Below, piece by piece: positions 5,880 to 28,933 of a DNA stretch of 29,632 nucleotides. The stretch's first letter is position 1, and each line of letters opens with the position of its first letter. The stretch spans positions 1 to 29,632 of IMG/VR virus record IMGVR_UViG_3300037961_004406; one strand, 5' to 3'. Source of the DNA: a virus. A program made the position numbers and the translations under genes. A model generated the notes under the pieces. The model did not search any database and was not told the DNA's origin. It saw only the letters and a list, made by a program, of their open reading frames with translations.

Positions 5880-6533
5880 TTATGGCGATGGTGAAGATAC
5901 CTTAATTCTTGGAACTCCATCATCGTATTCTCCTCGTCTTCTTCTACCCATTTGTTGTAGAGCAAAAGCTTCAATACTTGTATCATACTTGCTTTTATAG
6001 AGGTTGTACATATCTACTGGGCCTTTTAGATAAGAAAAAGCTTGTTCTAAAACACCATATAAAAGTAAACCGTCTTGATAAGATGATAAAAAGGTAGTTG
6101 AAGTCGATGTAAAGTGAGGAGGGTCTTTTATGTAATTTAACTGTACCTGATAAGTGCTATTTGGTGTTGGGGCTACTAAAAAATTATTTTCGTCCCAGTT
6201 AGCGTAATATTGAGGTAAACCAGTTGCTCCTGTATTGTTAAATTCTGATATAAAACTTGTATCTCTTTTCTCTAAAAAATGTCTATTTCCTGACCCATCA
6301 AAAACTTGTATTGATCTTATAATTAGTTCATCACTAGGTCTACTTACATATCTTTGTCCACTAACAAAATTAGCTGTTGCATATTTTCTTAAGTCATCAT
6401 AATCAACTTTACCAGCTACATCTAATTCTGTTTGTCTAATGAACTGATCAATTAAAGTGTCAGATAAAACATTTGAATCTACTTCAGTGTAGTTTCTTAC
6501 TTGAGTTAAAAAATCTGTATACGATATAGCCAT
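5880..6533 (-). CDS. SU10-type head-to-tail adaptor-like protein
   Basis: This 217-aa protein starts MAISYTDFLTQVRNYTEVDS, continues with a helix containing DQFIRQTELDVAGKV and then YVSRPSDELIIRSIQVF, and contains a conserved GLPQYYANWDENNFLVAPTP segment. This architecture fits the SU10-like phage adaptor family, which forms rings between portal and tail. A basic patch (QMGRRRRGEYDDG) lies near the C-terminus. Its ATG overlaps the neighbouring stop at 6533. The assignment is from remembered family resemblance, so the exact place in the tail connector is inferred. Confidence 0.6.
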   Translation of the reverse strand: MAISYTDFLTQVRNYTEVDSNVLSDTLIDQFIRQTELDVAGKVDYDDLRKYATANFVSGQRYVSRPSDELIIRSIQVFDGSGNRHFLEKRDTSFISEFNNTGATGLPQYYANWDENNFLVAPTPNSTYQVQLNYIKDPPHFTSTSTTFLSSYQDGLLLYGVLEQAFSYLKGPVDMYNLYKSKYDTSIEAFALQQMGRRRRGEYDDGVPRIKVSSPSP

Positions 6534-6895
6534 TATGTTATTCCTATTGTTACTTGCCCTACACTTGTGATGGCTTGTCTTAATCTATTTTGTAAAGAAC
6601 CATCATCGGGCTGCATACCATTTGAATTAAATGCAAAGTCTCCAGGTAAAGTTAAATCAACAGTCGCTCTACCTCCTCCACCTGATTCTAAAGTAAAAGT
6701 TTGTGGTCTTGCATTTCTTAAACCTTGTGCGTCAGCACCTGGGTTTCTTGGATTAAGTTGAGGATGTTTAGGTTCAAATTCAGATATGTGTACAAAAGCT
6801 CCTGTCCATTCTTTGACCATTTCTTTATAAGGAAATGCTTGACCTGAACGATCAGAAATAGCTAATGCATATCTACCTGTTGCTTGTCTTCCCAT
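6533..6895 (-). CDS. Conserved small virion or connector protein
   Basis: This 120-aa protein begins MGRQATGRYALAISDRSGQ and contains YKEMVKEWTGAFVHISEFEPK and a Gly-rich turn (LESGGGGRATVDLTLPG). It lies between the gp4-like and SU10-like adaptors, touching both by one-base overlaps. I do not recognise a characterised family. Context suggests a small connector or structural component made together with its neighbours. Confidence 0.65.
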   Translation of the reverse strand: MGRQATGRYALAISDRSGQAFPYKEMVKEWTGAFVHISEFEPKHPQLNPRNPGADAQGLRNARPQTFTLESGGGGRATVDLTLPGDFAFNSNGMQPDDGSLQNRLRQAITSVGQVTIGIT

Positions 6896-7584
6896 TATAC
6901 ACCATCTCCATAAAATGTTTGCGGTGAAATATATACTGATGTTCTTTGACCATCTTCATTCAACGCTCTTTGTAATTCATCTTCGTAAACTAATCTCAAA
7001 CTTTGCGTTGCTTGTGGATTAGATAAAAAAGAAAGATAATAAGATAAACCTGAAACCATACAAGGTATAAATCTGTAAGCTACATCAGTTGTATTTGTGT
7101 ATGCACCAGCATCCATAATTCTATTTATAGTGTAGTATTTTAAATGCGTGTAGGTACTAGCATCAGGTGCAACATATAAATTAATTACTGGTATTGTTTG
7201 TCTATCAACAAAATATTGTGAAGGCTGACCTTGTGAGCCTTTGTTAGGTAAAGCAGCGTAAGCTGATCTATCAATTTTTGTTAAAGATATATCATTAGTT
7301 GATGCAGTTTGTCCTGATGTCGTTGAAATGTAAGCTTCTAAAACATCTGACACGTCAGCAGGAACTGCGTAATTAATTGTACCAGCAGTTAATGCTTGTG
7401 TCTGAAGTTCAACTTTCCAAAGATGAACGCCACGATTACCCCATTCTGAAAATAAAATATTTAAATTTCGTCTTGCTCTTTTTAAGTCATAACCAGTGTT
7501 AGTTCTTACACCACACCTATTATAAGCCTCTTGAATAACTTCATCTACATTTAAATCAAAATCTGTTGTGTTAGAAGTAGCCAT
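6895..7584 (-). CDS. P22 gp4-like head completion / tail adaptor protein
   Basis: This 229-aa protein has the usual gp4-like outline: an N-terminal FDLNVDEVIQEAYNRCGV, then a helix ARRNLNILFSEWGNRGVHLW, then a beta segment INYAVPADVSDVLEAYI. It ends in a helical region with a conserved RFIPCMVSGLSYYLS and SLRLVYEDELQRAL. In P22, gp4 binds under the portal and closes the filled head. Its ATG overlaps the stop of the preceding gene at 7584. Together with the P22-type portal in this window, it supports a podovirus-like head-to-tail connector. Confidence 0.75.
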   Translation of the reverse strand: MATSNTTDFDLNVDEVIQEAYNRCGVRTNTGYDLKRARRNLNILFSEWGNRGVHLWKVELQTQALTAGTINYAVPADVSDVLEAYISTTSGQTASTNDISLTKIDRSAYAALPNKGSQGQPSQYFVDRQTIPVINLYVAPDASTYTHLKYYTINRIMDAGAYTNTTDVAYRFIPCMVSGLSYYLSFLSNPQATQSLRLVYEDELQRALNEDGQRTSVYISPQTFYGDGV

Positions 7585-8189
7585 TATAATAATCCTTTGT
7601 AATATTTTTGAGTGAAACCACCTTTAGATTTGCCAGTTACTTTTACACAAACCCCATTCTGATTTACATAACCAACTGGACATACAATTTGATTGTTACC
7701 GCCAATATTAGGTGGTGGTTTATTTCTACCAATAATACCTGCATCTTTTAAATACTGTTCATCAGGTGAACCTATTTTTGTGTTTAAAGGTCTGCCTGTT
7801 TGTCTATAAAAGTCTCTTGTTGCAGGTAATGTTTTTTTTCTACTTAGTAAACGTTCTCCTTTAGCTTCTTTTGCTCTTCTTACATTTTCTAAACCCATAA
7901 GGGCTGCTGTTGTAATTCCAAAAGGAGTTATCGGTATAGGTCTAAAAGTTTTACCACCCTCTAAATTTTGTTTTACGTTATTATTTACGTTTGCTTGTAA
8001 ATTAGTTTTAGTTTGAGTTTGAGTTTTAGTTTTTGTAGGGCCTTTATTACCTGAAAAGGGGTGATTATTTGATGGGCCTGATCTTACTCCACCAGTAACT
8101 GATGTTCCTGGAGACATAGGAGATTTACCAGCTCTTGCATCAGCTTGTGCTCCTTTGAAGAATTTTTTGACCTTTATTTTTTTTCTCAT
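7584..8189 (-). CDS. Basic protein with C-terminal Tyr-Tyr tag
   Basis: I do not recognise this 201-aa basic protein. It begins MRKKIKVKKFFKGAQADARA and has a low-complexity Thr/Lys/Gln stretch (TKTKTQTQTKTNLQ). Near the C-terminus is a two-Cys loop, CPVGYVNQNGVCV, of the CPxGY-C type seen in small secreted or virion proteins. It ends GGFTQKYYKGLL, a tag shared with the next three upstream genes. A short hydrophobic stretch around GITTAALMGL may be a weak helix rather than a membrane span. A virion-associated or DNA-binding role is inferred from charge and neighbours. Confidence 0.65.
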   Translation of the reverse strand: MRKKIKVKKFFKGAQADARAGKSPMSPGTSVTGGVRSGPSNNHPFSGNKGPTKTKTQTQTKTNLQANVNNNVKQNLEGGKTFRPIPITPFGITTAALMGLENVRRAKEAKGERLLSRKKTLPATRDFYRQTGRPLNTKIGSPDEQYLKDAGIIGRNKPPPNIGGNNQIVCPVGYVNQNGVCVKVTGKSKGGFTQKYYKGLL

Positions 8190-8201
8190 GCATATTCCAA
8201 A

Positions 8202-9050
8202 TTACATCAAATCTTTATAGTAATCCATTGTTTTACCTGGAACTAAGTTTTCATCTTGTAAACCACTTCCACTTTGTCTAGCGGCTCCATAACCTCTTTT
8301 CATTTCACCGCCATCTTTCATTCCAAATTTCTTTTTCTGTGCCTCAACTGACATTAAAGCTCCAACCATAGCTTTTTTAGGTTTCATTTTACCTTTCATT
8401 TGAGCACCTGCTATTCTATCTGCTTGTGTAGGATTTGGGTTTTTATCAATACCTGCTTTTACTGATAGCATACCAAAACCACCTTTAGCTCTTCTAGCTA
8501 TTCCTCTTCTACCCATTTCTCTTTTAGAACTCATAGAAGCACCAATGCTAGATTCAACTTTTCTTATGTCTCGTTTATTATCTTCTTTTTTTGCCATTCC
8601 TCTAGTTGATGCTGGGCCTCCTTGTGCTTTTTTTGCAAGAGGTGTCATCTCTTTTCTTTTCTTTAATCTATCTCTTAAATTTTCTCCAGCAGTTTTGCCA
8701 ATTCTTTTTCCCATAACATCTTTTATTTTTTGAACTGCGTCTCTTAATTTACCTGGTGTACCACTATCGTATCCACCGCCTTTTTTATATTTTAACATGC
8801 CTCCTCCAGCTTTTTTATTTTTTCTTTTAATTAATTCTTTTATACCAGGGTAGTCTTTTGCTTTTCCTTTATAAAAAACACCTCTTGGCATCAATTGTAT
8901 TACTTTAGGTTTTTTTGGTTTGTTGCTCATTCCACCTCCCGCTTTTTGTTGTGGTCTAGGTTTAGGTTTAATCGGTTTTGGTTTTAAAGGTTTTCCACCT
9001 TTACCTGTGGGTTTAACAACAACCATATTAAACGTATATTTTTTACTCAT
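8202..9050 (-). CDS. Lys-rich protein with KAGGGM motifs and YYKDLM tag
   Basis: This 282-aa protein is extremely basic. It carries Lys/Pro repeats near the N-terminus (GKPLKPKPIKPKPRPQQ), two KAGGGM motifs (QQKAGGGMSNK and NKKAGGGMLKYKKGGG), and ends TMDYYKDLM. No enzyme motif is visible. The gene overlaps its upstream neighbour by four bases (ATGA type), so these genes are probably translated together. The charge suggests binding to DNA or to acidic virion surfaces. The family is unknown to me, though similar Gly-Gly-Met, Lys-rich proteins are familiar from marine phage genomes. Confidence 0.65.
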   Translation of the reverse strand: MSKKYTFNMVVVKPTGKGGKPLKPKPIKPKPRPQQKAGGGMSNKPKKPKVIQLMPRGVFYKGKAKDYPGIKELIKRKNKKAGGGMLKYKKGGGYDSGTPGKLRDAVQKIKDVMGKRIGKTAGENLRDRLKKRKEMTPLAKKAQGGPASTRGMAKKEDNKRDIRKVESSIGASMSSKREMGRRGIARRAKGGFGMLSVKAGIDKNPNPTQADRIAGAQMKGKMKPKKAMVGALMSVEAQKKKFGMKDGGEMKRGYGAARQSGSGLQDENLVPGKTMDYYKDLM

Positions 9051-9325
9051 AGGTCTATCATACCCCCATAGTATTTCTTTGTAAACGTACTGACATTAGT
9101 AGGTTTTCCTCCTGGATTTCCTGCTGCTCTTTTTCGTCTGACAGCACTTGCCTTTTGCCCACTTGTCATACGTGTGGCTTTTGCAAGTGGGACACACTTG
9201 GGGTATTTCCTTGAAGAGCCACTCGCAGTAGACCTTCCACAAGGTTGAAATTTTCCATTTTTTCGCTTGGCTCCAATATCTACCCATTTTTCTGAAAACC
9301 ATTTTTTTAACCCCTTTTTAGCCAT
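9047..9325 (-). CDS. Small basic DUF5872-like protein with Tyr-Tyr tag
   Basis: This 92-aa protein contains KKWFSEKWVDIGAK, GKFQPCGRSTASGSSRKYPK, CVPLAKATRMTSGQK and SAVRRKRAAGNPGGKPTNV. I associate these motifs with the DUF5872-like domain found in phages, giant viruses and plankton genomes. Two Cys (in PCGR and KCVP) and many Arg/Lys suggest a nucleic-acid or metal-binding mini-domain, but no function is established. It ends TFTKKYYGGMIDL, a variant of the tag on neighbouring proteins. It overlaps both neighbours by a few bases. Confidence 0.65.
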   Translation of the reverse strand: MAKKGLKKWFSEKWVDIGAKRKNGKFQPCGRSTASGSSRKYPKCVPLAKATRMTSGQKASAVRRKRAAGNPGGKPTNVSTFTKKYYGGMIDL

Positions 9326-10035
9326 TAGATTAAATCTTTATAATATGCCTCGTATGACTTATTAGAAACTGGTTCCCCAGCTAAATCTGATTTGATATAT
9401 GAACCTTGATACTGTTCTCTTGCCATACCACCTTGATTAAAATCTTTAGTTTTTCTTTTTCTAATTTTTTGTCTCATTTGTTTTAATTCTTCAGGTTTTG
9501 GTCTTAAAGGCTCTCTCTTAAAACCAGGTTTCTTATCCATGGGTCTAAAAGGCATTCGCTCAATTCTAGGCATTTCATCTTCTCCAGGTCTATAAGGTAA
9601 CGGTCTCATTCTAACAGGTTTATTAGGATCGAAAGGCAAAGGTTTCATTCTACGTTCATCTCCAGGTCTAGAAGGCATAGGTCTCATGCCTTTTGGTCTT
9701 GGTCTTCGTCTTTTTTGATCTTCATATTTTTGTAAACGACCCATTCCTGAACCTGCTCCTGCCATACCACCTTCAGCTTTTTTAATTGAGTCTAAAGTTT
9801 TAGCTTGTTGTTTATGTAGACCTGATGCTTTATGTAAAGCTTTAGCTACTTTTTTAATTTTTATTTGACCACCTTCTTTTTTCTTTTTAGGGCCCCAATC
9901 TTTTCTTTTTAACCCTGAAGGGTCTTTTGCTTTACCTGCACAAATTTTAGAAGCATAGGCGTTAGCATATGCTGACGGATATACTTTAAATTTTCGCTTC
10001 GCTGCCGCTTTACCTCTTGGGCATAACTTTGTCAT
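9325..10035 (-). CDS. Basic protein with Arg/Pro repeats and YYKDLI tag
   Basis: This 236-aa protein starts with CPRGKAAAKRKFKVYPSAYA and NAYASKICAG, a conserved module in marine phage proteins. Residues 117-174 consist of four imperfect repeats of about 13 to 18 residues of the type MRPLPYRPGEDE. After another Lys/Arg helix (KQMRQKIRKRKTKDF) comes a GGMAREQYQG motif, and the protein ends SYEAYYKDLI. The start codon is preceded by AAAGGAGTTTATATG. No catalytic motif is visible. A structural, DNA-condensing or scaffold-like role is inferred from composition only. Confidence 0.65.
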   Translation of the reverse strand: MTKLCPRGKAAAKRKFKVYPSAYANAYASKICAGKAKDPSGLKRKDWGPKKKKEGGQIKIKKVAKALHKASGLHKQQAKTLDSIKKAEGGMAGAGSGMGRLQKYEDQKRRRPRPKGMRPMPSRPGDERRMKPLPFDPNKPVRMRPLPYRPGEDEMPRIERMPFRPMDKKPGFKREPLRPKPEELKQMRQKIRKRKTKDFNQGGMAREQYQGSYIKSDLAGEPVSNKSYEAYYKDLI

Positions 10036-10235: not shown

Positions 10236-11669
10236 TTACGTATTTCTTATGTTTTCAATCCATCTTTTATGAGAAATATAATTACGCTTCTCATCTAAAT
10301 AATTATTGACCATATTCTCAGTTGTTTTTGTTAAAATTTTTAAAGCATTTCTATCAAATTTTAATAGGAGTTTTTTAATTTCATCAGAATTCCAAAAATC
10401 CATACCGTATAAAACTTGTGTATAATTTTCAGTGTAAAATAAACTATAAGAACATCCTAAAAAATCTTCACCAATCGGAGGTCTTGTTTTCCAAATTTTT
10501 AACTTATCTTGTAGCTCATCAGGTAAAGTAACATCTTTTTCATTTAGGTAATGTATTAAAACAAATTCTTTAAGATTATTCATAACAATAGACATTTTAT
10601 CATTATACCTTTTTCTAGAAGCAGGACTTGGATCAATAAAATATTGATTGAATAAAAAGATTTGTTGTATTGTGGTTCCGATAGAAGTAGCCTCTAAAGG
10701 TTCAATGAAACTAGCACATAAACCAACTGCTAAACAATTTTGTATCCACATTTTTTCTAATGCACCAGGATCAAATTTTACATGCTTTCCTATTTCTATT
10801 TCATGTCCTAGTATCTCCTCAGATTCTTTTTTTGCTTGATCAGCATTTTTTAAATTGTTATTATAAACATGCCCATTACCCCATCTTCCATATGTAGGTA
10901 TTCTCCATGTCCAACCATTATTAGTTTTTCTTGATTCTGTATAAGGGGTGTATTCATTTGTATCCTGAGTTGGAAAAGCTATTGCTTCGTTCATAGGAAA
11001 CTGTTTTGAATAAGATTTCCATTTACCTCCAACACTAGAAATTAACAATCTTTTAAATCCTGTACAATCAATATAAAAATCTGCTGTATAATCTTTTTCC
11101 CCTATCAGTTTGTCTATTCTTCCTAAATCATTTAATCTAACAGTTTTAATAGTGTCGTTTGTAATTTTAATTCCACGTTGTTCGCATTTTTTTAGTAAGT
11201 ATTTATTTAATTTAAAAGTATTAAAATGATATTGTTTTGAAGGTGATTTATTTAAATCATTTTTAACTAAATTTTCAATCGCTAAATAATCAGCGGTTTT
11301 AATTTGATCAACTTTATTTGCAAGTAAACAAAGATAAGAAAAATTTAATTGACCTAATTTAATATCTGAAAACCCTCTTTGAATGCTGTGATAATAATTA
11401 TGTTTGCTCCATCCACCTGTAAAGTAAATTCCTAATTTTACAGTAGCGTCTGTTTCTTTAATTAATTCTTTCCAATCTATTTCACAATAATCTAAAAAAT
11501 CCTGCCATTGTTCTGTTGATCCTTCACCTACTCCTATGATACCAATCTCTTCTGATTTTATAATTTCTATATCTACGTTATAAGTTTTTTTCAAAATTAA
11601 AGCTGAAAGTAAACCTGCTGTTCCTCCACCTACAACTATTATCTTATTGACAGATGTATCCATTATCAT
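10236..11669 (-). CDS. Flavin-dependent (tryptophan-type) halogenase, copy 2
   Basis: This 477-aa protein is a full-length FAD-dependent halogenase. The FAD-binding GGGTAG lies at residues 14-19, followed by GIIGVGEGSTEQW. The catalytic Lys that forms or places the haloamine/HOX is Lys78 in DATVKLGIYF. The family signature WxWxIP is at 253-258 (NGWTWRIP), and the catalytic Glu is Glu326 in FIEPLEATSIG; characterised enzymes usually have Ser where Ala327 stands. Such enzymes use FADH2, O2 and halide; no flavin reductase is encoded nearby, so the host would supply it. It is paralogous to the halogenase at 13825-15216. Its start (ATG or the ATG two codons later, after AAGG) overlaps the preceding oxygenase-like gene by 26 bp. 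Substrate and halide are unknown. Confidence 0.9.
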   Translation of the reverse strand: MIMDTSVNKIIVVGGGTAGLLSALILKKTYNVDIEIIKSEEIGIIGVGEGSTEQWQDFLDYCEIDWKELIKETDATVKLGIYFTGGWSKHNYYHSIQRGFSDIKLGQLNFSYLCLLANKVDQIKTADYLAIENLVKNDLNKSPSKQYHFNTFKLNKYLLKKCEQRGIKITNDTIKTVRLNDLGRIDKLIGEKDYTADFYIDCTGFKRLLISSVGGKWKSYSKQFPMNEAIAFPTQDTNEYTPYTESRKTNNGWTWRIPTYGRWGNGHVYNNNLKNADQAKKESEEILGHEIEIGKHVKFDPGALEKMWIQNCLAVGLCASFIEPLEATSIGTTIQQIFLFNQYFIDPSPASRKRYNDKMSIVMNNLKEFVLIHYLNEKDVTLPDELQDKLKIWKTRPPIGEDFLGCSYSLFYTENYTQVLYGMDFWNSDEIKKLLLKFDRNALKILTKTTENMVNNYLDEKRNYISHKRWIENIRNT

Positions 11670-12213
11670 CGTTGACCTTTTCTATTAAAGTTTTCTTTTC
11701 ATCTATATCAGTTATTAACAAATTTCCTGCATAGGTTTCAATATTTGAAGATTTTTTTACCATATGTTCTAAATAACTTGGGAAAATTACTATTTGTCCT
11801 GGCCTAAATTCAGATTGATAAGTTTGTTCAAAAAAATTTTCACCATAAAAACATTCTATTAAATGTTTATGTGGAGCAAAGAATACAGTTCTAGATGCTC
11901 CTTTGATATATATAATAAAACTAAAATGAGAGTCTGTATGTATATGGTTTTCTTGAAAATCCTCTGTAATATATTTATTCTTCCATATGTTGCATAATTT
12001 AATTTTTGAAGATGCAGGTAATAAAGGCATAATTGTTTTTGCTATAACTGTCATTAAATAATGATAAGATTCTTTAGATAATTTATTTTTTTGTCCATGA
12101 GAAGTATTAGTATTAGAATACCATTTATTTTCTGCTGTTTCAGCTTGTAAGTCAATTTTTTCCAAATCTATATTTGTCATAAAGATAGGAGTTGAAAATA
12201 TATTAAATTTCAT
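11644..12213 (-). CDS. 2OG-Fe(II) oxygenase-like protein, copy 2 of the cassette
   Basis: This 189-aa protein resembles the putative 2OG-Fe(II) oxygenases of the PF13759 type. Candidate metal ligands are in ENHIHTDSHFSFIIYIKG (His90, His92, Asp94) with a distal His150 in IVIFPSYLEHMV. The expected Arg after the distal His is not evident (NIETYAGNLLITD), so activity is less sure than for other family members. It overlaps the carbamoyltransferase end by 11 bp and the second halogenase start by 26 bp. It shares FPSYL-H and the general layout with the protein at 15206-15703, indicating that the oxygenase and halogenase were probably duplicated as a pair. Confidence 0.7.
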   Translation of the reverse strand: MKFNIFSTPIFMTNIDLEKIDLQAETAENKWYSNTNTSHGQKNKLSKESYHYLMTVIAKTIMPLLPASSKIKLCNIWKNKYITEDFQENHIHTDSHFSFIIYIKGASRTVFFAPHKHLIECFYGENFFEQTYQSEFRPGQIVIFPSYLEHMVKKSSNIETYAGNLLITDIDEKKTLIEKVNDDNGYICQ

Positions 12214-13825
12214 TTTTAATTATTAGTTTCTTTTTTTCAGGAAGGTAAGAATATACAAGATTTGTTTCTAACATCATACTCTTCAAATCTTCTAAATTTT
12301 CTACAATTGGTGATCCTGGTTTATTTAGTGATGTATTAAGTAAAAAAGGTATTTGGTAAATATCATTAAAAGCTTTTAACAAATCATGATAATTAGTATT
12401 TTTTTCACGTATTAGTTCCTGGACTCTTGAGGTTCCTTGAGGACATAACACATTAGACAAATGTTCTTTTTTTGATTCTTGAGCTCTAAATACATTCATC
12501 ATAAATTCAGCACTTCTATTCGAATCTCGAATAAAATATTTTTCAAAATATTCACTCATAATAGTACATGCAAAAGGTCTGTACCATTCCCTTTTTTTAA
12601 TAGTGTTTATTTTATCTATGCATCTTAAATTAGTTGCATTCATCAAAAGACTTCTATTACCTAAAGCTCTTTGTCCTTGTTCTGACCTGCCCTGAAATAT
12701 TGCAACAGGGTCTTCAAATAAAATTTTTGCTACTTCTCCAGGAGAAACATCTATTATTCTAAATTTGTTATTAAATATTTCTAAATTATATTCAGGCTTG
12801 AATCCTAAATAACAATGATTTGGTCTTTGTATTGTATTAAAATTATAATGATTTAAATGACCTAAAGATATACCTTGATCATTACATATGGGATCATGAA
12901 AAATATCAAAATCAAAAGATAAAGATAAATCAGTATTTATCAGAATATTTTGTGTTACACCTCCAGTTATAGTAATGGGTTTGGATATACTTAATTTTTT
13001 GAAATAATTTCTTGCAATAAATTCACATGCCTTTTGAAATGTAAATGAAAAATTCATAGCATCATTATTACCTTTCTCTGTATTGAAATTTTTATATGCA
13101 GTTACTTTTTTATTTAGAGAATAATTTGGAAAAGGAGCTATTATATTTCTGTTAAAAGTATGATTACTAGATATTATATCACTAATATATTTTTCATCAT
13201 ATTTACCAAAAGATGAAAAAGCCATAGCTTTACCTTCAGAAAAATTATCATTTTCGAAAAGACCTAACTCTCTTGTTAAGAAAGTGTAGGCTTCTCCTAT
13301 ACCAAGATTGTTAGGAGAGGTATGTAAAAAGTCTTTTTGATAATTAAAAGGATCAGGATTGTATAAATATTTACGAATTTGTTTTAAATCATTTCTATAA
13401 AAAGAAACTTGTTCAACTCCTTTGATATTTTGTTCTAAGCTTACCTCTGCTCCGTTACCATCCCAAACTAAATAATCCGTATTGTTATTAAAAGATTTTG
13501 CACAGGCTGCATGAAATAAGTGATGGTTTTTAGATATTAAAATTTTTGCTTTTGGATGTAAGCATTCTCTAAAAAATTTCAAACCGCTTCCTTTGTTAAA
13601 TAAAAAACTTCGCCAAAGGTCAGTTAAATTATCTGACATTTCTGCAAATAAAACTACATCAAATACAATTCCTAGTTCTGCAATTTTTTTAATAATTTCA
13701 TAATTAGGTAGAGGGCTATGTTTAAATTTATTAAATCTACTTATTTCACAATGTACAATTAATTCATTATCTTTTGAAACAGAAATAGCTCCATCATGTG
13801 AAGTATATATCGAGAGAACATTCAT
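12203..13825 (-). CDS. NodU/CmcH-type O-carbamoyltransferase
   Basis: This 540-aa protein is the full length expected for the NodU/CmcH/TobZ family, which transfers a carbamoyl group from carbamoyl phosphate to a hydroxyl through a carbamoyl-adenylate. Family marks in order: SHDGAIS (10-14), the metal-binding HxxxH in NHHLFHAACA (His101, His105), WDGNG (Asp122), EGKAMAFSSFG, ITGGVTQNILIN, and the C-terminal-domain QGRSEQGQRALGNRSLL with KKREWYRPFA and NTSLNKPGSP. All appear intact. ATG overlaps the preceding halogenase stop as TAATG, and the following oxygenase-like gene overlaps by 11 bp. The acceptor could be a sugar, a small hydroxylated molecule or modified DNA; related viral enzymes have been linked with carbamoylation of hydroxymethylcytosine, but no hydroxymethylation gene is in this window. 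Confidence 0.9.
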   Translation of the reverse strand: MNVLSIYTSHDGAISVSKDNELIVHCEISRFNKFKHSPLPNYEIIKKIAELGIVFDVVLFAEMSDNLTDLWRSFLFNKGSGLKFFRECLHPKAKILISKNHHLFHAACAKSFNNNTDYLVWDGNGAEVSLEQNIKGVEQVSFYRNDLKQIRKYLYNPDPFNYQKDFLHTSPNNLGIGEAYTFLTRELGLFENDNFSEGKAMAFSSFGKYDEKYISDIISSNHTFNRNIIAPFPNYSLNKKVTAYKNFNTEKGNNDAMNFSFTFQKACEFIARNYFKKLSISKPITITGGVTQNILINTDLSLSFDFDIFHDPICNDQGISLGHLNHYNFNTIQRPNHCYLGFKPEYNLEIFNNKFRIIDVSPGEVAKILFEDPVAIFQGRSEQGQRALGNRSLLMNATNLRCIDKINTIKKREWYRPFACTIMSEYFEKYFIRDSNRSAEFMMNVFRAQESKKEHLSNVLCPQGTSRVQELIREKNTNYHDLLKAFNDIYQIPFLLNTSLNKPGSPIVENLEDLKSMMLETNLVYSYLPEKKKLIIKNEI

Positions 13826-15216
13826 TAATAATATTTTAAAATTAAATCTATGGCTTCTTTGTGCCCTATCTTTGGACTTTTATCATTAAAAGCTATAAAT
13901 TCCTCTGTATCTTTTACCACTTTATTTTTTAAATTAACAGGTAAATTTTCAAATACGTTTTTAATTAAATCAACATTAAAATAATTTAATCCATATAATA
14001 CTTCAATATAATTACCCGATTCAAATAAACCATAAGGCACATTTACATCCTCATCTTTTGGTAAATTATTTTTCCACTTACGTAGTTTGTCATTAAGTTC
14101 AGAAGATATCTCTCCATTTAGTTCTGAGTTTAAATAGTGCAGCTGTATAAACTCAACTAATTGATCAAAGACTTTATTAACAGAATAATTATATATTTCT
14201 TGATTATTGTTATCATGATATAAATTTAAAAACATAAAAACTTGATTAATAGTGCTTCCAATAGATGTGGCTTCAAGAGGTTCTACAAACATAGCAGAAA
14301 GGCCTACTGATAAACAATTCTTATTCCAAATTTTTTCTAACCTGCCTGGGTAAAAATTAAATTCTCTTTTACCTTGATCAATTAATTGTTTAATATCATC
14401 ATCAATTAATAAATCATTATATACAACACCATTACCCGTTCTATCTTGAGTAGGTATACGCCATTTCCAGCCACCTTTATATTTTTTTGCTAACGTCCAA
14501 GCATTATATTGATTCATCTTTTCAGTTTGAAAAGCAACTGCTTTATTGCATATAAGTTTGTGTGAGTAACTTTTCCAATCAGATTTATTAAGTAATCTTT
14601 TAAAACCTGTGCAATCAAAATAGAAATCTGCTAAATATTTTTTTTCACCTTGAATAAAATTAATTTGTTCTGTCTCATTAATTTTTACAATATGATCATC
14701 AAAAACATGTATATCTCTTTCTCTTGCTAATTTATAAAAATAATCATTTAGTTTGAATGTATCGAAATGATATTGGTTTACAGGAGATTGATTTGGTCTT
14801 TCTAAAAAATTAGGGTAAAATTTATTTTCAAAATAACATTGATCACTCAAAGGTAATTGAGAAAAAGAATCAGAAAGGTCATTACCAATATGAAAAAGAT
14901 AATAAGGTTTTGTTCTCAACCAATTTTGATCATGAAACACTGACCTAGTATGTAAAAATTCTTTATCTGACCAACCATTAAAAAATATTCCTGATTTAAA
15001 AGTAGCTCCAGTATGTTTTAAAATATCGTAGGGCTTAACACCGATAAAATTAATAAAACTTGTAAATTCTTTAGTAGAACCTTCTCCTACTCCAATTATT
15101 CCAATTTTGTCTGATTTTATAATGGCTACACTTTTTTCAGGGTATGCAGCTTTTACCATTAAAGCTGTAATATATCCTGCTGTGCCTCCACCTAGTATTA
15201 AGAAGTTATATTTCAT
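13825..15216 (-). CDS. Flavin-dependent (tryptophan-type) halogenase, copy 1
   Basis: This 463-aa protein contains all main halogenase landmarks: GGGTAG (9-14), GIIGVGEGSTKEF, catalytic Lys74 in GATFKSGIFF, CTGFKRLL after the second FAD strand, W250-x-W252-x-I-P255 (GGWKWRIP), and Glu315 in FVEPLEATSIG. As in copy 2, Ala replaces the Ser that usually follows the catalytic Glu. Characterised relatives halogenate indoles, pyrroles or phenols, and a cyanophage member of the family (VirX1) prefers iodide. The substrate-binding middle region differs strongly from copy 2, so the two probably act on different substrates or positions. It overlaps the upstream oxygenase by 11 bp and the carbamoyltransferase start by one base. 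Confidence 0.9.
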   Translation of the reverse strand: MKYNFLILGGGTAGYITALMVKAAYPEKSVAIIKSDKIGIIGVGEGSTKEFTSFINFIGVKPYDILKHTGATFKSGIFFNGWSDKEFLHTRSVFHDQNWLRTKPYYLFHIGNDLSDSFSQLPLSDQCYFENKFYPNFLERPNQSPVNQYHFDTFKLNDYFYKLARERDIHVFDDHIVKINETEQINFIQGEKKYLADFYFDCTGFKRLLNKSDWKSYSHKLICNKAVAFQTEKMNQYNAWTLAKKYKGGWKWRIPTQDRTGNGVVYNDLLIDDDIKQLIDQGKREFNFYPGRLEKIWNKNCLSVGLSAMFVEPLEATSIGSTINQVFMFLNLYHDNNNQEIYNYSVNKVFDQLVEFIQLHYLNSELNGEISSELNDKLRKWKNNLPKDEDVNVPYGLFESGNYIEVLYGLNYFNVDLIKNVFENLPVNLKNKVVKDTEEFIAFNDKSPKIGHKEAIDLILKYY

Positions 15217-18094: not shown

Positions 18095-18595
18095 TTAACA
18101 TTTCCATCTACGTCTCGCTTGTCTAATTCTTGAATTTGGATCATTTCTTGTTTTTGCACTAGCTCTTTTTAACTGACCTAAGCTTCTAGCACAATAACTT
18201 TTTCGTCTCTTTGCATCTTTTGACCCAGGTTTTACTTTACCTGTCACTGCTGTTTTTAATTTTGATCCAGGATTTAGTCTTCTGTAAGCTTTAACTCCAG
18301 CTTCTGTCATACCAGCACCTGATTTAGTAGGTCTAAAATTTTTTTTATTTCTAGAGGGCATTCCACCTTTGCTATATTTAGTTTTACCCTCGTCTCTTGC
18401 TCGTTCTTTTTTTATATTTTGTCTATGCTTATATTTTCTATATTGAGTAACTGGCGATAAGCCTATCAATAAAAAACTTGTTTTTGGATTTTCTTTTTTT
18501 AATCTATCTTTGACTTCTTTCTTAATACTATACTTTGGGCTAGATGAACCACCCTTTTTCATACCTAAAATATCTTTATAATAACTATCAATCAT
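18095..18595 (-). CDS. Basic DUF6321-like protein with N-terminal YYKDI motif
   Basis: This 166-aa Arg/Lys-rich protein begins MIDSYYKDILGMKKGG, so the Tyr-Tyr-Lys-Asp element that ends several proteins at 7584-10035 is here at the N-terminus. A KGGMPSRNKK motif follows. The C-terminal 75 residues (GMTEAGVKAYRRLNPGSKLK, KPGSKDAKRRKSYCARS, RIRQARRRWKC) match the DUF6321-like domain I recall from phages and some plankton genomes. The Cys residues in YCARS and WKC could bind metal. Function unknown; a nucleic-acid-binding virion protein is the simplest guess. Confidence 0.65.
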   Translation of the reverse strand: MIDSYYKDILGMKKGGSSSPKYSIKKEVKDRLKKENPKTSFLLIGLSPVTQYRKYKHRQNIKKERARDEGKTKYSKGGMPSRNKKNFRPTKSGAGMTEAGVKAYRRLNPGSKLKTAVTGKVKPGSKDAKRRKSYCARSLGQLKRASAKTRNDPNSRIRQARRRWKC

Positions 18596-20474: not shown

Positions 20475-21392
20475 TTAGCTAGTTGGTAAGTTTCCGTTAC
20501 CAAATACACATCTTGGATCAGAAAATCCAAAAGAGTATCTTTCTCTAGCTTTAAATCTAACATTACCTGTATCGAAGTCACCTTCTAATGCAGTTTTAAT
20601 CGGGCTTCTTTCGAAGTGTTTAAAACCATTAGGCACATCAGTTAACAAGAAGTATGAGTCTGTGTCAGTTAAAAAGTTATTAACTCTGTAACCTTCAGGA
20701 ACCATACCCATGTTGTTGATAGCGTTAATGTCATTGTCAGCAGTACCTGTTCTAAGAGTTGATTTCATCAATCTTTCAGCAGTGAATTGTAATTCTTTTG
20801 GAATTATCATTTTTCTGCCGTTAAGAGCGATTTTTAATCCTCTCTCATCAACGAAACCTTGGATATCAATTAGAGATTGCTCTAATGATGTTTCGTTAAG
20901 GTCAGCCGCAGTTGCCAATACATTTGAGAACGTACCACCATTTGATAATGGGTGATTGTTCGCAATTAAAGGCACACCGTCACCACCTGTTACAGCAGTG
21001 AATTGTGCTTGGTTGAGCACTTGTGCAGCTTTTACTTGCTTCGTGTTTGACATTGATCTTGCTAAAGCTCTTGTGTATCTTTGAGCAAGTCTGTCGTATA
21101 GGTTATCTTCGATTGCTTCTTCAGTGATAGCAAATGCTAAAGCAATAGTTTCGTGTGTGTATCTAGCTGTATAAGCTTCATTAGCTTGATCGAACACAAC
21201 TGAAGCACCCTCTTGTTTAGTTGGTGCACCAGCGAAACCGCTTAACATTACTTCTTCTTCAAAAGCTCTGTCAGATGATTCAGTATTGTAGATTTCCGCA
21301 TGTTGGTTATCATACCTACTGTATTCCAGGCCGAATAAGGCATTCAGTCCTGGCTCTAACTCTTTAGTTAGCTGTTGTCTTGATATAGCCAT
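20475..21392 (-). CDS. Major capsid protein (Mu gpT-like fold family)
   Basis: This 305-aa protein starts MAISRQQLTKELEPGLNALF, followed by SDRAFEEEVMLSGFAGAP, YTARYTHETIALAFAITEEA and SNTKQVKAAQVLNQA, the usual landmarks of Mu gpT-like major head proteins. The C-terminal half has KMIIPKELQFTAERLMKS and the beta-rich end FKARERYSFGFSDPRCVFGN. About 300 residues is the normal size. It is preceded by scaffold and minor head genes and followed by a strong terminator, as expected for the most abundant late protein. AAGGAGAATAGACAATG provides a strong ribosome binding site. Confidence 0.88.
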   Translation of the reverse strand: MAISRQQLTKELEPGLNALFGLEYSRYDNQHAEIYNTESSDRAFEEEVMLSGFAGAPTKQEGASVVFDQANEAYTARYTHETIALAFAITEEAIEDNLYDRLAQRYTRALARSMSNTKQVKAAQVLNQAQFTAVTGGDGVPLIANNHPLSNGGTFSNVLATAADLNETSLEQSLIDIQGFVDERGLKIALNGRKMIIPKELQFTAERLMKSTLRTGTADNDINAINNMGMVPEGYRVNNFLTDTDSYFLLTDVPNGFKHFERSPIKTALEGDFDTGNVRFKARERYSFGFSDPRCVFGNGNLPTS

Positions 21393-24293: not shown

Positions 24294-24674
24294 TTATTTT
24301 CTTTTTATCAAATCAGTAGCCTTAAGGCCATAAACACTCGCTATGACACCTACGAAAATTGTTTGGTACCAAAATGGGAGGTTCGAGAAATACTCGAAGA
24401 AAAGTTGCATCTTTTCCATGTGCTCAGGATTATCTGACCAAACTGCAAATCCTAGCATCACGATTGGCACCGAGAGCAAAAGCAAAATGAATTCGTCTTT
24501 CCAGTCTGATTGACGGGCTTCAAGAAGTTTGCCCTGGTATTCAATCTGTCCGTTGGCCATACGCTCTGCTGTTCTCATTTGAGCATCTGACATTAATTTC
24601 TTCGTTTCTTGTTTGTTTTTGTAGATATGAGCCCCAGTCTTCACAGCCATACCCAGCAGGTTTAACCAAGCCAT
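24294..24674 (-). CDS. GTA-type (3TM) holin-like membrane protein
   Basis: This 126-aa protein begins with a hydrophobic MAWLNLLGMAVKTG, continues with a polar helix, and has two clear membrane helices at about residues 62-79 (ILLLLSVPIVMLGFAVW) and 101-118 (FWYQTIFVGVIASVYGLK), with DWKDEF before the first and NLPFWYQ before the second. This is the pattern of the phage/gene-transfer-agent holin family of three membrane segments. It would form lesions for the endolysin. It has a strong ribosome binding site (AAGGAGAAAATACAATG). Its first 134 bases are also read, in another frame, by the end of the homing endonuclease. Confidence 0.7.
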   Translation of the reverse strand: MAWLNLLGMAVKTGAHIYKNKQETKKLMSDAQMRTAERMANGQIEYQGKLLEARQSDWKDEFILLLLSVPIVMLGFAVWSDNPEHMEKMQLFFEYFSNLPFWYQTIFVGVIASVYGLKATDLIKRK

Positions 24675-25050
24675 TGTATTTTCTCCTTCTTCTTAAACAC
24701 ATATATGGTATCATTTCTTGAAGAACAATCCAAGCCCTTTCTCCAACCAGTTTCCAACGAAATAAATTTTTGTGATGTGCTTTTCTTGAGCCAGTAGTGT
24801 GAAATATTCCACCAAACATTTCATGAAAACGAGCTACCATGTCTGAATCACATGTTTCTACCTTAATTTGTAGTTGTTTTGGTCTATTTTTACCACGACT
24901 CCATACTCCAAAACTGCCTTCCCCGTCAAAAATACCTGAAAGAAAAATTATTTTCTCATTTTTTGTTAGGTTGTCGTATGCTGAAAGATTTTTTTTGAAG
25001 TTTGACCTTAATTCCTTGAGGATTTGGCCCTCTTTTTGGGGGTGGCCCAT
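24541..25050 (-). CDS. LAGLIDADG-type homing endonuclease
   Basis: A single LAGLIDADG-like motif, LSGIFDGEGSF (residues 37-47 from the chosen start), with acidic Asp and Glu, is followed by a beta-rich DNA-contact region (QLQIKVETCDSDMVARFHEM, GIFHTTGSRKAHHKNLFRW) and helix WIVLQEMIPYM. One motif implies a homodimer. I chose ATG at 25050 because GGAGGT lies seven bases upstream; an in-frame GTG start at 25065 would add five residues. Both ends of the frame run through neighbouring genes in other frames: about the first 25 codons overlap a small conserved gene, and the last 134 bases overlap the holin. This suggests recent insertion. Confidence 0.75.
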   Translation of the reverse strand: MGHPQKEGQILKELRSNFKKNLSAYDNLTKNEKIIFLSGIFDGEGSFGVWSRGKNRPKQLQIKVETCDSDMVARFHEMFGGIFHTTGSRKAHHKNLFRWKLVGERAWIVLQEMIPYMCLRRRRKYNGLVKPAGYGCEDWGSYLQKQTRNEEINVRCSNENSRAYGQRTD

Positions 25051-25093
25051 ATTTTTTACCTCCACTTAGTCCTTTTCTTTTTTCTCTAGACAT
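24956..25093 (-). pseudogene. Small Gly/Pro-rich gene, probably cut by the homing endonuclease
   Basis: ATG at 25093 opens a 45-codon frame reading MSREKRKGLSGGKKYGPPPK then RGPNPQGIKVKL, a motif I know as the start of a small conserved marine phage protein. After that the frame continues only as KKSFSIRQPNKK and stops at 24956, inside the homing endonuclease gene. The usual C-terminal part is missing, so the gene looks interrupted, and the surviving N-terminal part is read in a second frame as the endonuclease N-terminus. It starts five bases after the stop of the preceding small gene. The family memory is not precise. Confidence 0.5.
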
Positions 25094-25592: not shown

Positions 25593-25644
25593 TAGTTTCT
25601 TCCTGTTTTTTAGGAGAAAATATTTTTTTAATCCAGTTCCACAT
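25546..25644 (-). pseudogene. Truncated copy of the Trp-rich small gene
   Basis: Starting at ATG 25644 (TAATG overlap with the portal stop), the frame reads the same first 19 codons as the complete gene at 25099-25254 (MWNWIKKIFSPKKQEETKK). It then runs out of frame into the portal 3'-end copy (ELELQKKSLILQE) and stops at 25546, giving 32 residues. It is a remnant of recombination, but it keeps a full ribosome binding site and could still be translated. Confidence 0.7.
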
Positions 25645-27977
25645 TAGTTTTTCCTATTCATTTCTTTCATTCTTGCAATATCAAGCTTTTCTTCTGCAAC
25701 TCTAATTCTTTCTGCTTGTCCTTGTGCAGCCTGATCTAATCTTGCTTGTTCAATTGAAGTATCAATCATAGTTTCATTTTGTTTTCTTTGTTCTTCCATA
25801 GAAAACTCATTTGATTTACGTTGCATATCCATAGCTTTTAAATCAAGTTCTCTCGATTTAAGAGCAACTAGAGGGTCTTGTTGACCACCTTCCATTTGAA
25901 CTAGGTTTGTAGTTAACTCGACAACTCTTTGTGCCACCATAGCATTATATTGAACTGTCCAAGCTTCAGGATTTGTTTCAGCAAGTTGTACAAGTTGAGG
26001 ATCAGCACCCATAGCTTCAACAACTTCTTGATTTGCTTTCATAGAAATATGTTCTGAAATGTGTGATTGTAAAACTGCATATACTTGTGGATTTACTTGA
26101 ACCATTCTTGATTTCATAAAAGCCATATGAGCTTGTATATGTGCTTCGTGATCTTGTGTTGCAAAAACTTTTAAAGGTTTTAAATTCATAGCATCAGTAT
26201 TTTCTAATGCAGGGTCTTTTGGAATTGGTTGTTCAACAGGTTTTAATAAACTATCAATAGCCTGTGTTCCTAACGCTTCATAAACTCTTCTGTAAGCTTC
26301 TCTTACGTCATGCAGTTGAGGATTACTCATAGCAATTTTTAATTGTTCATTTGCTAAGGTTACTCTTTGTGCAACTGAAAAAGTATTTGGATCAGCTATT
26401 GGTAAAACATCAACTCTTCCATCAAAGTCTGCTGCTTTAATCATTTGGTCTGCTCCATAAACTTGATACGGATAGATAGGGGGTAAGAACGTAGCAAAAA
26501 TTTTATGGAGCATTCTGAACTCTTGTCTCATAGAGTAGTAACATCTTTTGTGAATAGCACTCATCACACGAGAGCCTCTTTCTAAAAGAGCAAGGGTTGA
26601 TCCCACAGCTCTGTTTTGTGCATCCTCTCCTACTGCCATGTCAGCAATATTTGCAAAACGTTGACCTGCGTTAACAACAAAACCTAATAAACTATATAAT
26701 GTTTGCGATGGTTCTTTAAAAGGTAATATTTGAAACTGATCTCTAATATTACCGCCAGGTGCATCTACATCTCTAAACTCTCCTGGCTGAAAAGGTTGAT
26801 CATCATCTCTAATTCTAATACCTCTAGATTTAAAACCAGCAGGTAAGTTTGCTAATGTACCTGCATCTAATAATTGTCTTAATGCTTGTGTAGCTGTTCT
26901 TGTTAAGCCACCAATCATGTGAACTAAACCAAATCCATAAAAGCCTAGACCTGGTAAAAACTTGTAATGAACGAAGTAATCTTTTCTTTTAAAAAGTCTA
27001 TCACCTTCTTCGTAGTTTCTATATATGCTTAAAATTTTACCTGAGCCTTCATCAATAGTAACTATATATGGAACTTTAATTTTCTTTTCTTTATCTTCAG
27101 GGTTTTCGAATTTTTCTAAATTTAAATCAACATGCATTTCTAATATTTGATAATTATATGCTTGTTGAGTTGGTGATTTACCTTCTAACTCATCATACTT
27201 TTTTTGAATAGATGTTTGAGAATTTGTAGATGGTTTAATATCTACATCTCTATAAAAACCTGAGTCCATTTTTTTATATAAATCATTTTCTGACATTCGT
27301 AGACAATGAGTTATTCTCTCACAATCTTGTAGATTTGATGAATAGTAAGGAACAATAATATCTTCAGCAGGAACAAACTTTGCAACAGGTCTATCCATGA
27401 TTTCATCATAGTAGATTTTTTTGAAAGCTGATCCTGCAAGAGGAAGATAAAAAAGAAGTTGATCCATTTCAGGAGTGTACTCTTCCATTTTTTCTGTGAT
27501 TTGATAATTCATAAAGTTCTTGACCCGTGAAGCTTGATCCTCTGTTTTTTCATTTTGAACACCAACGATTGCTGTTTTTACTGGGCCTGATGATGGTAAT
27601 AATTCTTTATAAGCCTGTGCTTGAAATTGCGTAATAGCCTCGGATAAAAGTGGATGAGTCACGCCTGACGCTCCTCTAAAAGGTTTAGATGGTTGTGTGT
27701 ATTTAAAACCTAAAAGATCAAGTCCTGATGTATATCCGTCTTCCCATTCTTTTCTTGATGACTTGTCTCTTTCATACTCACCTTTTAACTGTGATGAAAT
27801 TTTTTGTAGAATATTATCGTCTAGTTCTTCTGCAAGATTTGAGTAAAAATTATTTTCAGCTACAACAACTTCTTCTTCTATTTCTTCGCCTTCGATTCTA
27901 AATTCTTTGGATTTAGGTTCTTCAGTATTCTCTTCAACTTTTAATGTATCGTCTTCTTCAAATATTTCTGAACTCAT
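25644..27977 (-). CDS. Portal protein (P22-like, large type)
   Basis: This protein of about 777 aa has the usual landmarks of large portals of marine podophages: acidic N-terminus, KEWEDGYTSGLDLLGFKYT, PFRGASGVTHPLLSEAITQF, LLFYLPLAGSAFKKIYYDE, FVPAEDIIVPYYSSNLQDCE, GLGFYGFGLVHMIGGLTRTA and LLDAGTLANLPAGFKSRG, then a long helical C-terminus rich in Gln and Glu. The portal is the DNA gate at one capsid vertex and docks the terminase. I chose ATG at 27977 because AAAGGGGTAAG lies just upstream; an in-frame TTG at 28001 would add eight residues. The last about 23 codons are duplicated downstream. Confidence 0.85.
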   Translation of the reverse strand: MSSEIFEEDDTLKVEENTEEPKSKEFRIEGEEIEEEVVVAENNFYSNLAEELDDNILQKISSQLKGEYERDKSSRKEWEDGYTSGLDLLGFKYTQPSKPFRGASGVTHPLLSEAITQFQAQAYKELLPSSGPVKTAIVGVQNEKTEDQASRVKNFMNYQITEKMEEYTPEMDQLLFYLPLAGSAFKKIYYDEIMDRPVAKFVPAEDIIVPYYSSNLQDCERITHCLRMSENDLYKKMDSGFYRDVDIKPSTNSQTSIQKKYDELEGKSPTQQAYNYQILEMHVDLNLEKFENPEDKEKKIKVPYIVTIDEGSGKILSIYRNYEEGDRLFKRKDYFVHYKFLPGLGFYGFGLVHMIGGLTRTATQALRQLLDAGTLANLPAGFKSRGIRIRDDDQPFQPGEFRDVDAPGGNIRDQFQILPFKEPSQTLYSLLGFVVNAGQRFANIADMAVGEDAQNRAVGSTLALLERGSRVMSAIHKRCYYSMRQEFRMLHKIFATFLPPIYPYQVYGADQMIKAADFDGRVDVLPIADPNTFSVAQRVTLANEQLKIAMSNPQLHDVREAYRRVYEALGTQAIDSLLKPVEQPIPKDPALENTDAMNLKPLKVFATQDHEAHIQAHMAFMKSRMVQVNPQVYAVLQSHISEHISMKANQEVVEAMGADPQLVQLAETNPEAWTVQYNAMVAQRVVELTTNLVQMEGGQQDPLVALKSRELDLKAMDMQRKSNEFSMEEQRKQNETMIDTSIEQARLDQAAQGQAERIRVAEEKLDIARMKEMNRKN

Positions 27978-28021
27978 CTTACCCCTTTTTATCTGAATCA
28001 AAAACTAATGCAACCATTACA

Positions 28022-28933
28022 TTAGTAGATTTTCGTTGCTTTTTTTCTACCCATCTTACAGCCACGAGCCATGACGCTTCCGCCAGTTTTCATTCTGTTA
28101 ATTACTCTTCTATTACCAACTGCTTCTCTAGGATCAACTGTGCTTTTTCTTCTGTCCATGTATTTTCCTTCAAGAGTATTTTTTACAAAAGTTCTGATAG
28201 GTGTTTTTCTATTTTTTCTAAATTCTTTTGCTTTATCTACATCAACTCCGCCACCTCTTTTTAGCTGACCTCTATTTCTGTCTGTAATTTGACCAGGAGC
28301 TTTTGCAAGTTTAGTATCTTTTCTTTTAGCTGCATTTAAAAATTCTTTTAAATTTGTTTTACCTGCTCTAGAGATATCATCTTTAGTTACAGCTGAATAC
28401 ATTTTATCATTGTATGCAAATTTAGTTCCAACACCTTTAGCTCTAGCAGCTTTAAATGCTTCACCAAAACTTGATAATGCACCTTTTACATCAGGAGATT
28501 TTGCAATCGGTTTTGGTTTATCCTTACCTTGAATTGTTTTTGCTTTTGCTGCAAGTAATGGGCCAGTAGCTCCAACTGTTGCTCCAGTTGTTATTTTTGA
28601 TTTTGGTAAATCTTTTTCTACATCTGCCTCTGCTTTTTTAGCAGCGATTCTTTTTCCTTTAGGTGAATCAGGTTTTACCGCATTTACTTTTGCTAATCTT
28701 TTTTGTCTTCTGTCTTCAGCAGCTCTAAATTTTTTTACTGATTCTTGATTAACATTTTTTTTATTTATGGCAGCAACTTTTTTATTAAATTCTTCTCTCT
28801 TTTTTTTAACTCTTTCGGGAAGTTTGCTTCCAGCTTTTCCAAACAATGAGCCTCTCTTCGAAGCTATTCTATCTTGTCTTCTTTTTTCTGAAGCTTTAAA
28901 TGCTTCTACTGATCCTCTTTTTGGCTCTGCCAT
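28022..28933 (-). CDS. Basic protein between terminase and portal
   Basis: This 303-aa Lys/Arg-rich protein begins MAEPKRGSVEAFKASEKRRQ and repeats a similar helix later (VNQESVKKFRAAEDRRQKRL). It has a Gly/Thr linker (TTGATVGATGPLLA) and ends RMKTGGSVMARGCKMGRKKA followed by TKIY. I associate the MARGCKMGRKK ending with short basic marine phage proteins. No catalytic motif; high charge suggests DNA or RNA binding. Strong ribosome binding site (AGGAGATTATTATG). Its position between TerL and portal could suit a packaging-associated or virion-internal protein, but this is inference. Confidence 0.6.
   Translation of the reverse strand: MAEPKRGSVEAFKASEKRRQDRIASKRGSLFGKAGSKLPERVKKKREEFNKKVAAINKKNVNQESVKKFRAAEDRRQKRLAKVNAVKPDSPKGKRIAAKKAEADVEKDLPKSKITTGATVGATGPLLAAKAKTIQGKDKPKPIAKSPDVKGALSSFGEAFKAARAKGVGTKFAYNDKMYSAVTKDDISRAGKTNLKEFLNAAKRKDTKLAKAPGQITDRNRGQLKRGGGVDVDKAKEFRKNRKTPIRTFVKNTLEGKYMDRRKSTVDPREAVGNRRVINRMKTGGSVMARGCKMGRKKATKIY

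Follow-up and report, generated by a model that had tools for sequence, protein, structure and literature searches.

Basic proteins with a common terminal peptide

The stretch of DNA analysed here (hereafter the window) comprises positions 1 to 29,632 of IMG/VR virus record IMGVR_UViG_3300037961_004406, which is 53,951 bp long, and encodes several basic proteins that carry the same short peptide, termed tag A or the YY motif, at one end. By sequence the phage is assigned to the HTVC023P-type pelagiphages, because its major capsid protein and other structural genes are homologous to those of HTVC023P and HTVC027P: the capsid protein is 88% identical to that of HTVC023P and 74% identical to that of HTVC027P, and counterparts of the GroES, scaffold, portal and adaptor genes of the window are present in HTVC023P/HTVC027P. 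HTVC023P-type phages are the most abundant known group infecting SAR11. The head module of the window contains portal, scaffold-like and GroES genes and two SU10-type adaptor genes. The tagged proteins are as follows.

7584-8189, minus strand: basic protein of 201 amino acids, net charge +28, C-terminal tag A SKGGFTQKYYKGLL; its gene runs into the start of the adaptor gene 6895-7584
8202-9050, minus strand: basic protein of 282 amino acids, net charge +52, C-terminal tag A GLQDENLVPGKTMDYYKDLM
9047-9325, minus strand: basic protein of 92 amino acids with a WVDIG/YPKC domain (phrog_23735), C-terminal tag A
9325-10035, minus strand: basic protein of 236 amino acids with an N-terminal YPSAYAN domain (phrog_27331), C-terminal tag A SNKSYEAYYKDLI
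18095-18595, minus strand: basic DUF6321 protein of 166 amino acids with a mirror-image N-terminal tag MIDSYYKDILGMKKGG
28022-28933, minus strand: basic protein of 303 amino acids, net charge +54, C-terminal tag C GGSVMARGCKMGRKKATKIY, between TerL and portal

The first four proteins end, in order, in FTQKYYKGLL, KTMDYYKDLM, TKKYYGGMIDL (FTKKYYGGMIDL, with G at tag position 4) and YEAYYKDLI. The window's open reading frames (ORFs) thus bear out the original prediction that four adjacent proteins end in KYYKGLL, DYYKDLM, KYYGGMIDL and AYYKDLI and that a fifth begins with the motif. That these proteins are basic and mutually unrelated also held: the isoelectric point of all five YY-tagged proteins lies between 10.4 and 10.9, and no pair of tag-free bodies is significantly similar (best E 0.56, with composition statistics). 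PHROG/Pfam-type profile comparison gave no family match for the proteins at 7584-8189 and 8202-9050, and the DUF6321 match of 18095-18595 scores 47.2 bits, above the Pfam gathering cut-off of 28.5. In most of 68 IMG/VR loci, the match to 8202-9050 is confined to about its last 36 residues, the body being divergent.

At the C-terminus, tag A has the form [GG]Phi-x-D-Y-Y-[KR]-[DG]-Phi-Phi, where Phi is a hydrophobic residue; it spans about 6-9 residues, often with a Gly-Gly linker between it and the body. At the N-terminus of DUF6321 proteins it takes the form M-x-[DS]-Y-[YT]-x-[DE]-Phi-Phi...K-x-GG, with Y[YT]x[DE][IL]L followed by K.GG. In the AlphaFold model of 18095-18595, residues 3-9 are predicted to form a short helix followed by a low-confidence linker stretch, and the C-terminal tag of 9047-9325 is modelled with low confidence. 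Foldseek searches with both predicted models, which are of low to moderate confidence, returned nothing useful, and no sequence relatives of the major capsid protein, adaptor, WVDIG or DUF6321 families were matched in the PDB. Full-text searches of openly licensed PMC papers returned no description of such a tag. It is present in HTVC023P, a phage isolated independently of the tag, where gp52 ends in KYYGGMIEI, gp53 ends in DYYKDIM and gp43 carries the N-terminal form SYYDDILGFKRGG.

Position, lineage restriction and coding of tag A

Scans of the IMG/VR collection are samples rather than full listings, and all figures drawn from them here and below hold among the matches listed. When the motif followed by a stop codon was sought, a tag-ending ORF was found in 84 of 119 loci; the collection of such proteins, proposed in the original prediction, thereby recovered a basic tagged protein at 76 loci and co-located tags (at least two tagged ORFs) at 34. 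A codon-permuted control scan gave 13 of 120 loci, one with a basic protein and none carrying two or more tagged ORFs. When GGPhi.DYY[KR][GDE]Phi was sought and no stop was required, the stop codon fell exactly one residue later in 112 of 112 ORFs, which span many unrelated bodies. Across 1,422 ORFs from 16 genomes, the strict C-terminus YY[KRG][DG]PhiPhi was seen 27 times, whereas within-protein shuffling predicts 0.006 occurrences. Tag A is present on 30 of 202 basic ORFs but 3 of 1,220 others in these genomes (p=2e-23), a set that is not unbiased, 12 of the 16 having been found through tag or capsid protein scans. The shuffles and the codon-permuted control rule out a chance origin of the tag. 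A variant longer than the YY core, YYGP[LM]LKGFKNG, was also observed, often on CWxGY proteins (G008 9739, G010 17694, G012 51611, G009 5306).

The tag is restricted to one phage lineage. In two scans, HTVC023P-type structural genes were present in 76 of 79 and 101 of 105 tagged loci. The remaining loci include several contigs of very small length and two apparently spurious frames; at another, L166, the same tagged YPSAYAN protein is encoded on a contig dominated by genes of DNA metabolism. The C-terminal pattern occurred at four loci in a set of 84,980 bacterial and archaeal genomes, two of them in one Pelagibacteraceae assembly; all four are HTVC023P-type phage contigs, which rules out a cellular motif. 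Within the phage genomes the tagged genes lie in the head module, beside adaptor, portal, GroES or scaffold.

Codon usage in 176 unique tag A tails indicates that the constraint acts on the peptide. The first Tyr is encoded by TAT or TAC in 132 and 44 tails, and Lys by AAA or AAG in 123 and 44; D outnumbers G at residue 4, and the last two positions stay hydrophobic. Synonymous codons thus vary, which points to selection on the peptide. The conserved 3' ends could instead be a nucleic-acid feature, namely a ribosome-binding site or a coupling signal for the overlapping next gene: the next start codon is overlapped by 20 of 33 tag-A genes in the 16 genomes, against 17% of other frames, and AAAGGA within YYKG resembles a Shine-Dalgarno site. 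Third codon positions vary, however, D (GAT/GAC) outnumbers G, the motif also occurs at N-termini, and the hydrophobic residues are kept as amino acids. Moreover, YY is rare near the ends of overlapping non-basic genes (4/185) compared with overlapping basic ones (20/81). A DNA or RNA element, Shine-Dalgarno sites included, was rejected on the codon variation and these non-basic controls, and we regard this explanation, largely refuted by the codon variation, as very improbable. The N-terminal tag of the DUF6321 proteins further suggests that neither a free carboxylate nor gene overlap is essential to the peptide.

Further tag classes and the exchange of tags

When the basic proteins of each genome were listed, further recurrent C-termini emerged, so that there are, tag A included, three or more classes of C-terminal tag, a result that goes beyond the original prediction. 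Tag B, RGxGxAI[RK]GxxFxGV-x, was scanned as G.AI[KR]G..F.GV plus one residue; it is terminal in 107 of 107 frames, 96 of the 99 unique proteins that bear it are basic, and its loci are HTVC023P-type in 88 of 89 instances. Tag C, K[LI]GR[NK]KxTK-[IML]-x, was scanned as K[LI]GR[NK]K.TK plus two residues, rarely three; it is terminal in 85 of 93 frames, and the 8 internal matches look like chance. Its carrier is often the gene between TerL and portal, as in the window.

Other recurrent ends were observed. YPSAYAN or WVDIG proteins may end in a fourth tag, GG[LI]I[DN]xTKMxYxV (L103 720-; L590 3605-4000), and on some DUF6321 proteins an N-terminal KGTGKAV, the core of tag B, replaces the YY-type tag (L404 6732-7064, L395 3969-4610).

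Tags are exchanged between bodies. Unique proteins with a YPSAYAN body end in tag A in 97 cases, in tag B in 42 and in another or no tag in 40; for the WVDIG body these counts are 116, 3 and 60. The YPSAYAN protein of HTVC023P, gp51, ends in tag B RGGGAAVRGMGFKGVF, whereas its window homologue ends in the tag A sequence AYYKDLI. Conversely, a cassette ending in KKYYKGML or KKYYKGLV is attached to a WVDIG body in 023Pt_psg01 and to a KKAIQKLI body in L150. The original prediction had named absence of the tag from homologues as evidence against a shared signal; most homologues keep a tag, some carry a different one, as gp51 does, and loss of the C-terminal YY form is confined to the HTVC027P branch among the cases compared.

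Despite this exchange, residue 4 of tag A follows the body, a second result beyond the original prediction. In WVDIG proteins it is G in 108 of 113 cases, in GLQDE-tailed proteins D in 64 of 64, and in the others D predominates. Where both bodies have the GG-Phi tail form, it is G in 32 of 32 WVDIG and D in 32 of 32 YPSAYAN proteins. Shared ancestry inflates these counts, yet the contrast persists across differing tail forms. The same data bear on the idea that common descent is the sole cause of the tag, which would then be a relic, left by duplication of a C-terminal domain in an ancestor and serving no purpose today. Longer cassettes (GSYI.S..GG..V.N.S....YYKG) are indeed common to some tails on different bodies, in keeping with such a relic. 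A relic would hardly keep its extreme-end position in 112 of 112 frames while the bodies diverge, swap with other tag classes, or match residue 4 to the body type across tail forms, and we consider this origin highly unlikely.

Putative docking at the head and comparison with known systems

The families to which the tagged proteins belong appear, by homology, to be head or virion components elsewhere, since cyanophage homologues occur in virions and related genes in P-SCSP2 lie between scaffold and capsid genes. DUF6321 relatives were found in 435 phage records, mostly cyanophages. In S-SM2 (S-SM2_109) and S-B43, one protein encoded near the terminase large subunit gene contains a WVDIG-type domain, a DUF6321 domain and a short WPSAYAS element. 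S-SCSM1_29 shows the same arrangement, with WVDIG-type, CWxGY-like and DUF6321 domains, and is annotated as 'virion protein' in its record; the virion proteome of its phage has been measured (PMC9602691). S-CREM2 gp137 has DUF6321 at its C-terminus, and four of its unique peptides were identified in virions purified on CsCl (PMC10665884, Table 3). A further candidate, S-SZBM1_190, detected by mass spectrometry and encoded near terminase genes, was discarded because it is not a DUF6321 protein. The P-SCSP2 versions of these genes are untagged; the C-termini of two of these homologues (L317 5001-5689), SLRVA and SLKIA, may represent a further common tag, one used by T7-like cyanophages.

The reading we favour, and hold to be reasonably probable, is that the YY motif serves as a docking signal at the protein terminus and brings basic proteins to the forming head for incorporation into the virion. 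Tag A would recruit several different Lys-rich proteins to at least one receptor site on the assembling head, and these would thereby be built into the virion, much as the capsid targeting sequence (CTS) of T4 recruits basic internal proteins. Being very basic, the bodies probably bind nucleic acid. Tags B and C, on sibling proteins, may act in parallel as different addresses, and residue 4 of tag A (G or D) may distinguish which body docks. The original prediction of a common sorting or docking signal is strongly supported by the exact register of the tag, its swapping, the synonymous codon variation, its confinement to one lineage and its head-module location. Packaging into the head, which it had proposed as an example, gains indirect support from the cyanophage virion homologues and the pattern resembling T4 IPII and IPIII; for the tagged proteins themselves it is a step that we infer. 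The receptor may be the portal or adaptor, as the original prediction also suggested, the capsid, the scaffold or a host protein. The candidate receptors and the adaptor gene that adjoins the tagged cluster are listed below.

20475-21392, minus strand: major capsid protein, candidate tag receptor; its 88% identity to HTVC023P marks the phage group
22528-23646, minus strand: acidic scaffold-like protein, net charge -16, candidate tag receptor
25644-28001, minus strand: portal protein, candidate tag receptor
6895-7584, minus strand: SU10-type adaptor homologue, adjoining the tagged cluster; also in most tagged loci of related phages

Two other partners for the tag were considered. The tags might join the basic proteins to each other in a nucleoid-like, DNA-condensing complex that enters the head by binding DNA and not by a head receptor. 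The presence of several tagged proteins per genome, their strongly basic bodies, and the fusion of the same domains in one cyanomyovirus polypeptide, as expected of partners, agree with this. The use of at least three unrelated tag classes, exclusively at termini, fits receptor peptides better, and some genomes have a single C-terminal tag-A protein (psg01); we therefore think self-association unlikely. Alternatively, the tag might bind a host protein (a chaperone, a protease adaptor, RNA polymerase or a membrane site) and act in the infected cell instead of the virion. It is limited to phages of one host-associated lineage, and host adaptors often recognise a free C-terminus; both points would suit a host target. 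The location of the genes between portal and adaptor, within the head module, the virion homologues of the domains, and the N-terminal motif of DUF6321 proteins, by which a free carboxylate is probably not required, make a host target quite unlikely in our view.

Several observations weigh against docking at the head. HTVC027P and the related genome G006 are without a C-terminal YY tag, so that tag A is not essential across the group. The proteomic links concern domain homologues in T4-like cyanophages that are without the tag, and none is a tagged protein. Because the ends of many tagged genes run into the following start codon, part of the constraint may come from translational coupling. Finally, the T4 CTS is matched over a short stretch, and Y.[DE]PhiPhi also occurs at one further N-terminus of 38 in the T4 stretch tested and in 6 of 1,220 non-basic pelagiphage frames; with such background matches to a short motif, the likeness is only suggestive.

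A more tentative extension of docking at the head, possible but somewhat doubtful, is a terminal address code with at least three tag peptides, in which class and sub-class choose docking sites on the prohead and proteins are re-addressed by tag swapping. If so, each basic DNA-binding protein would be delivered to its own place, and many 'hypothetical' genes of the lineage would acquire a function. Where T4 relies on its CTS for packaging, such a code would be a second answer to the same problem, given at the C-terminus. How phages choose their head proteins could then be tested by moving a tag of 6-9 residues, and a way of loading proteins into a podovirus head would suggest itself.

The neighbouring genes include two SU10_adaptor-type proteins in succession (6895-7584 and 5880-6533), the second of which begins MAISYTDFL and likewise fits Y-x-[DE]-Phi-Phi. 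Two tryptophan halogenase genes (10236-11669 and 13825-15216) lie within the structural region, with a carbamoyltransferase gene (12203-13825) and a 2-oxoglutarate (2OG)-Fe(II) oxygenase gene (11644-12213) between them, a candidate modification cluster. A small ORF between portal and GroES (24541-25065), which overlaps 24294-24674, has a DGEGSF sequence that recalls homing endonucleases and no Pfam match.

Comparable signals are known from other systems. Encapsulin cargo-loading peptides are C-terminal and load unrelated cargo into an HK97-fold shell. They serve bacterial compartments and differ in sequence. In phage P1, a terminal peptide of fewer than 30 residues of DarB is sufficient to direct a protein to the capsid (PMC9024508), although that signal is N-terminal. 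The T4-like cyanophage proteins S-SM2_109, S-SCSM1_29 and S-CREM2 gp137 all contain DUF6321, and S-SM2_109, S-SCSM1_29 and the S-B43 protein also a WVDIG-type domain; in pelagiphages these domains are separate genes, whereas in the cyanophages they are fused into a single protein, encoded close to the terminase large subunit gene, with no YY tag seen.

The closest parallel is the T4 CTS. Both systems attach a short terminal peptide to different basic proteins of the head module. T4 IPII and IPIII both begin MKTYQEFIAE, and the short pattern Y-x-[DE]-Phi-Phi fits T4 (YQEFI) and the pelagiphage (YKDLM/YKDIL), tag A in general having Y-[KR]-[DG]-Phi-Phi. T4 residues 4 (Y) and 7 (F), critical for targeting, would correspond to the Y and first Phi of the tag; in T4, Alt undergoes processing at the C-terminus as well (PMC9026906). 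The T4 signal is N-terminal, whereas tag A is C-terminal on four of the five window proteins and N-terminal only on the DUF6321 protein; the pelagiphage tags also comprise several coexisting classes, with a body-specific residue 4. Among the head proteins scanned, a set that covers the head genes and not the rest of the 54 kb record, no match to a prohead protease family was found except for the capsid protein, whose own weak match to protease-plus-capsid PHROGs lies over their capsid part. As no such protease was found among these genes, tag A is probably not removed. We do not class it as a CTS, since it is mostly C-terminal, belongs to one of several classes and has no protease recognised among the head genes scanned. 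Tag A differs from the T4 signal in lying mostly at the opposite protein end and in being one of several classes; in its apparent docking role it probably works like a CTS.

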